Shown: positions 12,177 through 13,341 of the stretch, one piece after another
How positions within the stretch are numbered: the first letter of the stretch is position 1
Layout: each line of letters begins with the position of its first letter
NCBI GenBank assembly: GCA_944380455.1
Contig: CALWHR010000008.1
Coordinates: forward strand, 1 to 35,336
From: an uncultured Clostridia bacterium
GTDB taxonomy: Bacteria; Bacillota; Clostridia; Lachnospirales; Anaerotignaceae
Direction: 5' to 3'
DNA: 35,336 nucleotides
Translations under genes and position numbers: made by a program
Notes under the pieces: generated by a model
What the model was told of the DNA's origin: nothing
The model's database searches: none
What the model saw: only the letters and a program-made list of their open reading frames with translations

Positions 12177-12581
12177 ATGGAAAACAGCAGAATAGAAAAA
12201 GCCGGAGAAAACCACTATAACGGCTACAACTGTGCTCAAGCCCTGGCCTGCGCTTACAGCGATGAGGTTGGTATGGACGAAAGCACTATATTTAATCTTA
12301 CAAGCGGCCTTGGTGTAGGCATGGGCAATATGGAAGGCAGCTGCGGTGCAGTAAGTGCGGCAGTTATGATTGCGGGACTTAAAGCACAGCAGGCAGGACT
12401 GAGCAAAAAAGACACATTTAAGCTCTGCTCAGGCATTACCAAAGAATTTATGACAAAAAACAAATCTGTTGTATGCAAAGAATTAAAAGGCATACAGACA
12501 GGCTGTGTTTTAAGAGACTGCCACGGATGTGTTCTTGATGCCGCACAGATACTTGAAGAAAAGATAGCTGAAATATCATAA
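12177..12581 (+). CDS. C_GCAxxG_C_C family protein
   Basis: A 134-residue cytoplasmic protein of the redox-type C_GCAxxG_C_C family. The conserved cysteines are visible in order: NCAQ (near residue 20), GSCGAVSAAVM (the GCAxxG-like motif), VCKEL and CVLRDCHGCVLDAA. Proteins of this family are thought to bind a metal or Fe-S centre; the exact role is unknown. AAGGAG lies 9 bases before the ATG. A TATAAT hexamer (12129-12134) is a possible -10 without a good -35. The last base of its stop codon is the first base of the IS200-type terminal hairpin, so its own terminator seems to have been displaced. The T-tailed hairpin at 12686-12710 could now serve. Confidence 0.85.
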   Translation: MENSRIEKAGENHYNGYNCAQALACAYSDEVGMDESTIFNLTSGLGVGMGNMEGSCGAVSAAVMIAGLKAQQAGLSKKDTFKLCSGITKEFMTKNKSVVCKELKGIQTGCVLRDCHGCVLDAAQILEEKIAEIS

Positions 12582-12601
12582 CCACCGGCTTAGCCGGTGG
12601 T
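12581..12601. repeat. Left terminal hairpin of IS200-type element
   Basis: ACCACCGGCT (12581-12590), centre T, AGCCGGTGGT (12592-12601): a 10-bp perfect palindrome repeated with one base changed at 13261-13279. Confidence 0.85.
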
Positions 12602-12608
12602 TTGACTT

Positions 12609-12702
12609 GGACCCTATAAGGGTCCTTTGCCTGCACGCGTCTTAAAGACGCACTGAATGTCCGGCATTTGCACTACTATCTCTACAGCCGCTTAAAGCGG
12701 CT
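12609..12702. repeat. Cluster of three further palindromes
   Basis: Three unrelated short palindromes in a row: GGACCCT-ATA-AGGGTCC (12609-12625), GCGTCTT-A-AAGACGC (12637-12651) and AGCCGCTT-A-AAGCGGCT (12686-12702). The stems differ, but all have a T/A-only centre of 1 to 3 bases. They lie between the left terminal hairpin and the transposase stop codon. Confidence 0.8.
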
Positions 12703-12710
12703 TTTTTATT
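12686..12710 (+). terminator. T-tailed hairpin, plus-strand terminator inside the element
   Basis: The 8-bp stem at 12686-12702 is followed by TTTTTTATT on the plus strand. It would stop plus-strand read-through from the C_GCAxxG gene before it reaches the transposase from its antisense side. Confidence 0.65.
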
Positions 12711-12719
12711 TGCCTGTTT

Positions 12720-13175
12720 TTACTTATTACCCGTAAACGGGTCTATGTATTCTTTTATACTTATTTGGTCTGCCATGTAATCTTCTTTTAATTGGTTTTG
12801 TATGTATTCTTGTATTTTCTTTGTATTTTTTCCTACAGTATCTACATAATACCCTCTGCACCAAAAATTTCTGTTTCCATATCTATATTTTAAATTCGCA
12901 TATCTTTCGAATATTATTAGTGTACTTTTGCCCTTTAACACCCCCATTACATATGATACACTATATTTTGGTGGTATCTTTATTAGCATGTGTACATGGT
13001 CTTTACAACATTCTGCTTCTATTATCTCAACTCCCATTCTTTCACATATTTCTCTTAATATTTTTCCTATATCTGCTTTCAATTTTCCATATATTATTTG
13101 CCTTCTGTATTTTGGCGCAAATACAACATGATATTTGCATTCCCACTTTGTATGTGCTAAACTACTATTATTCAT
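12720..13175 (-). CDS. tnpA: IS200-type TnpA (Y1, HUH) transposase
   Basis: Single-strand DNA transposase of 151 residues, full length for IS200-type TnpA. The metal-binding HUH motif is CKDHVHMLIKIPP (His60, His62) and the catalytic tyrosine is Tyr124 in IQEYIQNQ. KYHVVFAPKYRR near the N-terminus and SVSYVMGVLKGKS are typical of the family. There is no frameshift or stop, so it may be active. The ribosome site TCCTCC/GGAGGA lies 6 bases before the ATG but is inside one arm of a long inverted repeat (see 13177-13237), which should keep translation low. The lack of a TnpB partner makes this the IS200 subgroup. Confidence 0.93.
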   Translation of the reverse strand: MNNSSLAHTKWECKYHVVFAPKYRRQIIYGKLKADIGKILREICERMGVEIIEAECCKDHVHMLIKIPPKYSVSYVMGVLKGKSTLIIFERYANLKYRYGNRNFWCRGYYVDTVGKNTKKIQEYIQNQLKEDYMADQISIKEYIDPFTGNK

Positions 13176-13176
13176 A

Positions 13177-13237
13177 AAAAATCCTCCTTTGTTTTCGTGT
13201 CTTGCCGGACTCTTTATTATAACAAAGGAGGATTTTT
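13177..13237 (-). promoter_or_regulatory. Ribosome-site-sequestering stem-loop in tnpA leader
   Basis: Perfect 17-bp arms, AAAAATCCTCCTTTGTT (13177-13193) and AACAAAGGAGGATTTTT (13221-13237), 27-base loop. On the minus-strand mRNA the arm next to the ATG holds the AAGGAGGA ribosome site and the upstream arm is its exact complement. A TATAAT-like hexamer (13221-13216, minus) at the loop edge could start a shorter transcript without the upstream arm; no good -35 is seen. Confidence 0.75.
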
Positions 13238-13260
13238 CTTGAAGCTGAAGCTTTTTTACT

Positions 13261-13279
13261 CCACCGGCATAGCCGGTGG
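13261..13279. repeat. Right terminal hairpin of IS200-type element
   Basis: CCACCGGC-ATA-GCCGGTGG, the near-copy of the palindrome at 12582-12600. Confidence 0.85.
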
Positions 13280-13311
13280 TTTTGTCTTGCTTAAGCGCAC
13301 AAAGAAATAAA

Positions 13312-13341
13312 AAAAGACTTCGGTTTAAACCGAAGTCTTTT
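13312..13341. terminator. Terminator of dctP
   Basis: AAAAGACTTCGGTTT (13312-13326) and its exact reverse complement (13327-13341). The minus strand continues with TTTATTTC, so it ends the dctP message. Confidence 0.85.

Follow-up and report, generated by a model that had tools for sequence, protein, structure and literature searches.

An inverted repeat in the 5′ UTR of tnpA is common in the IS200 group, and in the Salmonella element the resulting stem-loop sequesters the ribosome site, according to passages of PMC12594629. The same passages place the start of the Salmonella tnpA transcript at bp 40, attribute it to a 'poorly defined' promoter located within bp 1-40, and describe IS200 as essentially immobile in Salmonella and E. 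coli (PMC12594629, 2025). Similarly, passages of PMC8450116 report that a structure in the transposase leader of ISPpu9, from Pseudomonas putida, covers the ribosome site. In the source passages, the IS200 ribosome-site stem has so far been described as a standing block on tnpA translation. For IS10 and IS50, it was reportedly found by Davis in 1985 and by Krebs and Reznikoff in 1986 that outside-in RNA sequesters the transposase ribosome site and that the upstream half is missing from RNA started at the element's own promoter.

The element considered here is located in a window of 35,336 nucleotides, the whole stretch of DNA that was analysed, from an uncultured Clostridia bacterium. Its main parts are the following:

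About 12575 to 13302, minus strand: IS200-type element of about 728 bp, its ends placed to within a few nucleotides.
12720 to 13175, minus strand: tnpA, coding for a Y1/HUH transposase of 151 amino acids (Pfam Y1_Tnp, PF01797, E 3e-41).
13261 to 13279, minus strand: left-end (LE) hairpin.
12582 to 12600, minus strand: right-end (RE) hairpin.
13243 to 13252, minus strand: small palindrome AGCTTCAGCT, between the LE hairpin and the stem over the ribosome site (P1).

Several features place this element in the IS200 group. Besides the Pfam hit, TnpA matched TnpA chains in the PDB, including that of ISHp608 (best match 2ec2, E 1.4e-27), and its sequence contains a DHVH motif and a Tyr within IQEYIQNQ, with presumed catalytic roles. 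There is no tnpB, the sole other reading frame of at least 80 amino acids within 12575-13302 being antisense (12821-13177). Subterminal hairpins occur in the absence of terminal inverted repeats, formed by 22-nt near-identical sequences in direct orientation (12582-12603 and 13261-13282), and a stem covers the ribosome site upstream of tnpA. The ends were placed by partial near-identical copies in another genome of the same genus (G002), which started at positions 21-29 and stopped at positions 756-760 of a query running from 13330 to 12550; the four left flanks of these copies, as compared, differ from one another, and their leaders (L097, L102, L105 and L108) present both stem arms. The orthologous site of a further genome (G003) is free of the element, which would fit precise single-strand insertion without target duplication, the G003 flank being too diverged for the junction to be placed. 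Short palindromes similar to that of the window (AGCTTTAGCT, ATCTTTAGAT) were seen by eye at the same place in many relatives. Small perfect hairpins lie between tnpA and the right end (12610-12702), at 12610-12624, 12637-12651 and 12686-12702, and the tails of the Konateibacter and Clostridium copies also looked rich in hairpins. Konateibacter massiliensis has at least 7 copies, which show 0-2 differences over 765 nt. The host genome itself holds partial relatives of the element, those on contigs C27 and C2 with stop codons. Another one, L005 on contig C61, is a short match in which TGTTATAAT is kept along with a stem that is nearly complete, a single pair being altered, and in which no tnpA start lies directly downstream of the leader. 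It may represent a remnant, either decayed or non-autonomous. A related genome from the same family (G322) gave 68 tnpA matches (67 of its 478 candidates scored), many of them partial or with stop codons, which is likely the trace of an old burst.

The leader of tnpA contains the following elements of structure:

13221 to 13237, minus strand: upstream (5′) arm of P1, the exact complement of the ribosome-site arm.
13199 to 13210, minus strand: loop hairpin P2 (GTC CGGCAA GAC), with only 3 bp in the window.
13177 to 13193, minus strand: downstream (3′) arm of P1, with the AGGAGG ribosome site at 13183-13188.

The sequence-only reading had proposed that a perfect 17-bp stem buries the tnpA ribosome site, and this was borne out. 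The arms of P1 are exact reverse complements over 17 bp, with AGGAGG in the downstream arm, 7 nt before the tnpA ATG at 13175, and one more pair, a G-U on the tnpA strand, joins 13176 with 13238. A scan of the window for the 17-mer, allowing up to three mismatches, returned only the two arms (0.34 matches expected by chance; two or more in 6 of 100 shuffles). Moreover, the RNA fold of 13150-13290 on the minus strand reached -46.3 kcal/mol, versus -22.1 ± 3.5 kcal/mol for dinucleotide shuffles (z = -6.9; 0 of 200 as good), and no Rfam family was reported at the tnpA leader at the gathering threshold. The likeness to the occlusion known from Salmonella IS200, which had also been pointed out, holds as to the kind of stem, with the correction that such an inverted repeat is common in the IS200 group in the passages of PMC12594629. 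P1 itself is thus an ordinary, known feature of the group. Its perfection, taken at first as distinctive, is a matter of degree, 17 bp being at the long end and the unbroken stems listed for relatives measuring 4 to 14 bp.

Relatives of the transposase were collected to compare their leaders. A total of 457 were confirmed, and the best 80 of these 457, with 71-81% amino acid identity and mostly named as Clostridia or Firmicutes, were used together with the window. Two of these 81 leaders were dropped, L077 as too short and L078 for want of an anchor, and the removal of those at least 90% alike left 42 non-redundant leaders. Most relatives share a common order, composed of the LE hairpin, the small palindrome, a 5′ arm ending in TGnTAnnnT, the loop hairpin, the GGAGG arm and the start codon. 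A wider set, drawn from plasmids, phages, viral contigs and two genome searches, gave 84 non-redundant leaders, leaving out loci without a 5′ end (L166, L175, L177, L183, L189-L191); the two genome searches contributed 23 of their 58 loci, those in plus orientation. A further 23 leaders, not made non-redundant against the 84, came from 25 minus-oriented loci (one duplicate and one too short), with ten loci whose match started past residue 12 excluded. The stem finder applied to both sets, which requires a core with three G and allows few mismatches, recognised a stem in 62 of the 84 leaders and in 18 of the 23, and none in 22 and 5, respectively. The 22 leaders that failed this rule comprise five distant TnpAs, one case of a replaced 5′ end (L231) and 16 leaders of the IS200 group, nine of them with TGnTAnnnT by eye. 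The scan of viral contigs with the window protein gave two loci only, and an exact DNA pattern of motif plus loop hairpin had one match among 291 genomes of the class, being too strict to be informative.

The core of the arm is the ribosome site, which ribosomes would conserve in any case, so it was excluded from the arm test, which covered eight positions per arm beside it. In the 42 leaders, the inner arms of the same leader matched at 5.62 of 8 positions versus 4.20 ± 0.14 for permuted arms, a value reached in 0 of 10000 permutations. In a MAFFT alignment (A1), 82.5% of the cells of six inner pairs were standard pairs and five of the six pairs changed on both sides, which was reached by 8 of 500 shuffles. 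The covariation score of these pairs was 0.371, versus 0.119 ± 0.017 in shuffles (0 of 500 reached it), and at most 0.091 when the partners were slid; for the whole structure including the loop hairpin it was 0.235 versus 0.105. One pair was G-C in 12 leaders, U-A in 9 and A-U in 8, and another occurred in all four Watson-Crick orders, these being counts that take no account of descent. The inner stem sequence itself differs among relatives (TTTGG, TGTGC, TATGT) and the pairing is retained. Shorter stems also exist, such as the 7 bp of the Peptoniphilus copies, and in several leaders an internal loop of 2 nt interrupts the pairing. Further pair types were no more numerous than in shuffles (426 of 500 reached the count), and RNAalifold on the MAFFT alignment gave 7 pairs only, with a covariation term of almost nil; the case for covariation rests on the anchored arm test and the pair counts. 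Non-conservation of the arms in other copies had been named beforehand as grounds for giving up the occlusion; the comparison of copies for compensatory changes found the opposite, arms conserved with such changes.

The loop hairpin P2 (helix 2 of A1) had 7 pairs with 75.9% of cells paired, and 5 of the 7 changed on both sides. In A1 it occupies columns 29-50; its loop is alike in many relatives (TCGCCAA or CTGCAAA), and column 32 is an unpaired purine. It is placed where the predicted short mRNA would begin, and may shield that 5′ end or serve as a protein-binding site.

A second signal overlaps the upstream arm of P1:

13216 to 13224, minus strand: extended -10 motif TGTTATAAT, part of which lies in the inner end of the 5′ arm.
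13207 to 13211, minus strand: predicted tnpA transcription start, in the loop about 7 nt past the -10 (about 13209), placed from the position of the -10.

The consensus of extended -10 sites is TGnTATAAT, and such sites can work without a -35. In the window, TATAAT at 13216-13221 is preceded by TGT, and the stem has its last base in the first T of this hexamer. A simple σ70 scan in which a -35 is required did not report this motif, and no -35 was found for it. TGnTAnnnT was present in 36 of the 42 leaders, 35 of them in one register (L033 being shifted by 3), and TAnnnT in all 42, placed 9 bases past the start of the CTCC of the 5′ arm in 37 and within 3 nt of that place in the other five. The anchored columns read, out of 42, T39 G39 n T40 A37 and, at the last position, T37, with the 'n' being T in 13, C in 12, A in 10 and G in 7. 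This free 'n' is a covarying stem position, paired in 32 of 41 leaders, so that one stretch meets two demands at once. None of the 42 leaders has TGnTAnnnT within the 75 nt preceding the 5′ arm, and 0 of 42 have it between 22 nt past the arm start and the ATG; L079 has a second, overlapping match inside the stretch. Nor was there, in these 75 nt, any other TAnnnT place common to at least 40% of the 42 leaders. In six leaders (L011, L013, L016, L024, L027 and L045), the G of TG is without a partner in the ungapped register and the motif is kept, which argues that the motif is no by-product of pairing. In the wider set, TAnnnT occurred in 58 of the 62 stemmed leaders (47% in shuffles) and TGnTAnnnT in 48 of 62 (4.8% in shuffles); among the 18 stemmed leaders of the further 23, the numbers were 17 and 13. 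A stem without TAnnnT was seen in L113, L133, L176 and L195 (4 of 62) and in L230 (1 of 18). The earlier suggestion of a built-in promoter from a TATAAT-like hexamer at the edge of the loop thus gains support, as a putative extended -10 overlapping the upstream arm in most relatives.

Taken as a whole, this leader of an IS200-group element probably separates the element's own transcripts from incoming ones by means of a promoter inside the stem. According to this proposal, RNA polymerase would start in the loop from the extended -10 whose TGnT sits in the upstream arm, and the element's own mRNA would lack this arm and have a free ribosome site. Host read-through RNA would carry both arms and fold, with AGGAGG buried and little or no transposase made. 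Folding gave the ribosome site a mean unpaired chance of 0.02 with the upstream arm and 0.65 without it, higher without it in 42 of 42 leaders, a comparison of long and short forms that is partly true by construction. The unpaired probability was below 0.1 in 40 of the 42 leaders when the arm was included and above 0.5 in 35 of 42 when it was left out, the site being partly paired in the other 7 (lowest L079, 0.28). From these leaders we infer that the motif is a working promoter, where it would start transcription and how far translation would respond; folding predicts that read-through RNA is poorly translated, as in IS10/IS50. The new part, as a sequence-based prediction, would be the promoter embedded in the stem, conserved in relatives and changed in the studied enteric lineage. 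No description of a promoter inside the IS200 stem was recognised among the listed titles and abstract openings and in passages of the open-access literature, which is weak evidence of novelty.

The layout might instead be that of Salmonella, with the element's own start upstream of both arms, all tnpA mRNA occluded, translation dependent on melting of the stem and TAnnnT not the main promoter. In the Salmonella copy (L113), the arms extend from bp 68, where the 5′ arm starts, to bp 136, the end of the 3′ arm, with TCTATGG taken as bp 1, a numbering start chosen here to fit an inverted repeat at 12-34 that was reportedly described in IS200 by Beuzon in 1999. Together with the start at bp 40 given in passages of PMC12594629, arms from bp 68 to 136 imply that the Salmonella tnpA mRNA holds both arms, and under this chosen numbering the homologous 5′ arm begins past the start. 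In the 42 leaders, however, the 75 nt before the 5′ arm, with neither TGnTAnnnT nor a TAnnnT place shared by 40%, offer no conserved -10-like site from which such a transcript would be predicted to start. Moreover, the embedded motif is kept in leaders that lost its pairing partner, and the enteric copies differ at exactly this motif. We therefore regard a self-sequestered leader as unlikely in these relatives, and favour the promoter inside the stem.

Considerably less probable is a role of the stem as DNA, namely a single-strand hairpin recognised by TnpA or folded in peel-and-paste transposition, with the overlap with the ribosome site being incidental. Hairpin ends are typical of the IS200/IS605 family. 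According to passages of PMC5371812, its members move as single-stranded DNA. The comparison of G-U with A-C, taken as a test of RNA against DNA, showed no bias (8 versus 7 in P1; 15 G-T versus 32 A-C in P2), so that the pair types favour neither, and the lack of a G-U excess in P1 is consistent with a DNA hairpin. Against it, the inner sequence varies while pairing is kept, and the stem covers the ribosome site just before the ATG in the leaders where it was found. Slightly more remote still is the idea that P1 acts mainly as a terminator or attenuator of read-through RNA, as suggested by the TTTTTT in which the downstream arm of the window ends, by the resemblance of A-tract, stem and U-tract to an intrinsic terminator, and by the TTTT ends of some relatives (L200, L201, L205, L212). 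Many relatives, however, have no T-run past the stem, with ATCCAAAATG in its place for example, and P1 has a loop unusual for an intrinsic terminator, of 27 nt in the window and of greater length in most relatives; the terminator scan described below takes loops of 3-8 nt only and so does not test P1 in this respect.

In eight distant TnpAs of about 33% identity (L245, L248, L251, L253, L254, L247, L249 and L255), the script rule found no stem of this kind, which suggests, on a small sample, that the layout of stem and putative embedded promoter marks the IS200 group. A cyanobacterial copy (L117) also failed the stem rule and by eye showed no TAnnnT at this place. By eye, the leaders of L245 and L246, distant TnpAs of about 33% identity, cover the ribosome site with a hairpin of short loop, CTAGAGGTGAT, that contains no -10, which looks like another form of occlusion.

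The surroundings of these elements have a bearing on how much transcription would enter them. In the window, the neighbouring host feature on the left is the following:

13312 to 13341, minus strand: host intrinsic terminator directly upstream of the element, with a T-rich tail at 13301-13311, common to the element-free G003 ortholog.

A simple scan found an intrinsic terminator in 45 of 72 left flanks, versus 0 to 4 of 69-82 in each of nine control placements within these loci and 69 of 3600 shuffled flanks; 17 of 89 loci had been dropped from this set (13 without a recognised LE hairpin and 4 with short flanks). In a second set, which includes Salmonella-type copies, leaves out L201, L155, L159 and repeated flanks, and had no minus-oriented loci in its input, terminators were found in 34 of 61 left flanks versus 0 to 4 of 57-70 in controls. 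Across both sets the control placements gave 0-7%. As the scanned flanks end 12 nt short of the LE hairpin, T-runs can be missed, and some hits (L081, L090) are about 50 nt away and do not adjoin the element. This placement fits the over-representation of ten IS families, IS200 included, between convergent genes, as given in passages of PMC9208149. The choice of target may thus reduce incoming transcription first, and the stem would deal with the remainder. No description of IS200 targeting terminators was recognised among the listed titles and abstract openings and in passages of the open-access literature, again a weak sign of novelty. On the other side of the element, the gene of a C_GCAxxG_C_C protein (12177-12581) has its stop codon, 12579-12581, inside the right end of the element; its G003 ortholog ends by eye at the shared terminator, and the insertion appears to have truncated this gene at its 3′ end. 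The other neighbour is a gene for a DctP solute-binding protein.

A broader reading is put forward tentatively, at somewhat less than an even chance. In it, the embedded promoter would be ancestral in the IS200 group and part of a layered guard against host transcription, composed of landing just behind host terminators, the LE hairpin and the ribosome-site fold, with the only translatable mRNA coming from the -10 in the arm; the Salmonella copy would be derived, its promoter lost. If so, this loss would help to explain the near immobility of the Salmonella copy. With the promoter inside it, as favoured above, the stem would be a filter that restricts the element to reading RNA of its own making. 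One 9-nt stretch would then be both a promoter and part of an RNA switch, which makes for a compact design of nature, and the silence of IS200 in enteric bacteria would have an explanation open to test. It would also be a solution like that of IS10/IS50, in a transposon of wholly different chemistry. The position of these elements behind terminators hints at a way in which they avoid harming their hosts.

In comparison with known systems, Salmonella IS200 is alike in its homologous TnpA (62% identity), its LE hairpin, its ribosome-site stem and a loop hairpin with a sequence of the GGTCTGGCAAC type; it differs in that its transcript starts before both arms, a start within the loop being predicted for the window element. 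All 40 of the 40 fetched enteric leader loci carry TGTTAAAAC where others carry TGnTAnnnT, and TGTTAAAAT occurs in 0 of 40; as most of these leaders are near-identical, they were counted as one lineage. The leader of ISPpu9 belongs to another kind of element, and for it passages of PMC8450116 propose relief by an antisense RNA, Asr9, rather than by the site of transcript start. IS10 and IS50 are DDE transposons and unrelated to the present element. Passages of PMC5006887 and PMC4265352 contain no description of their read-through block. The likeness is in the proposed mechanism, in which the element's own promoter would be so placed that its own mRNA lacks the upstream arm, and to this the motif and its position fit. 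In IS10/IS50 the upstream arm is at the terminus of the element, whereas in the window element it is internal, about 65 nt inside the left end, and the putative -10 lies partly within it.
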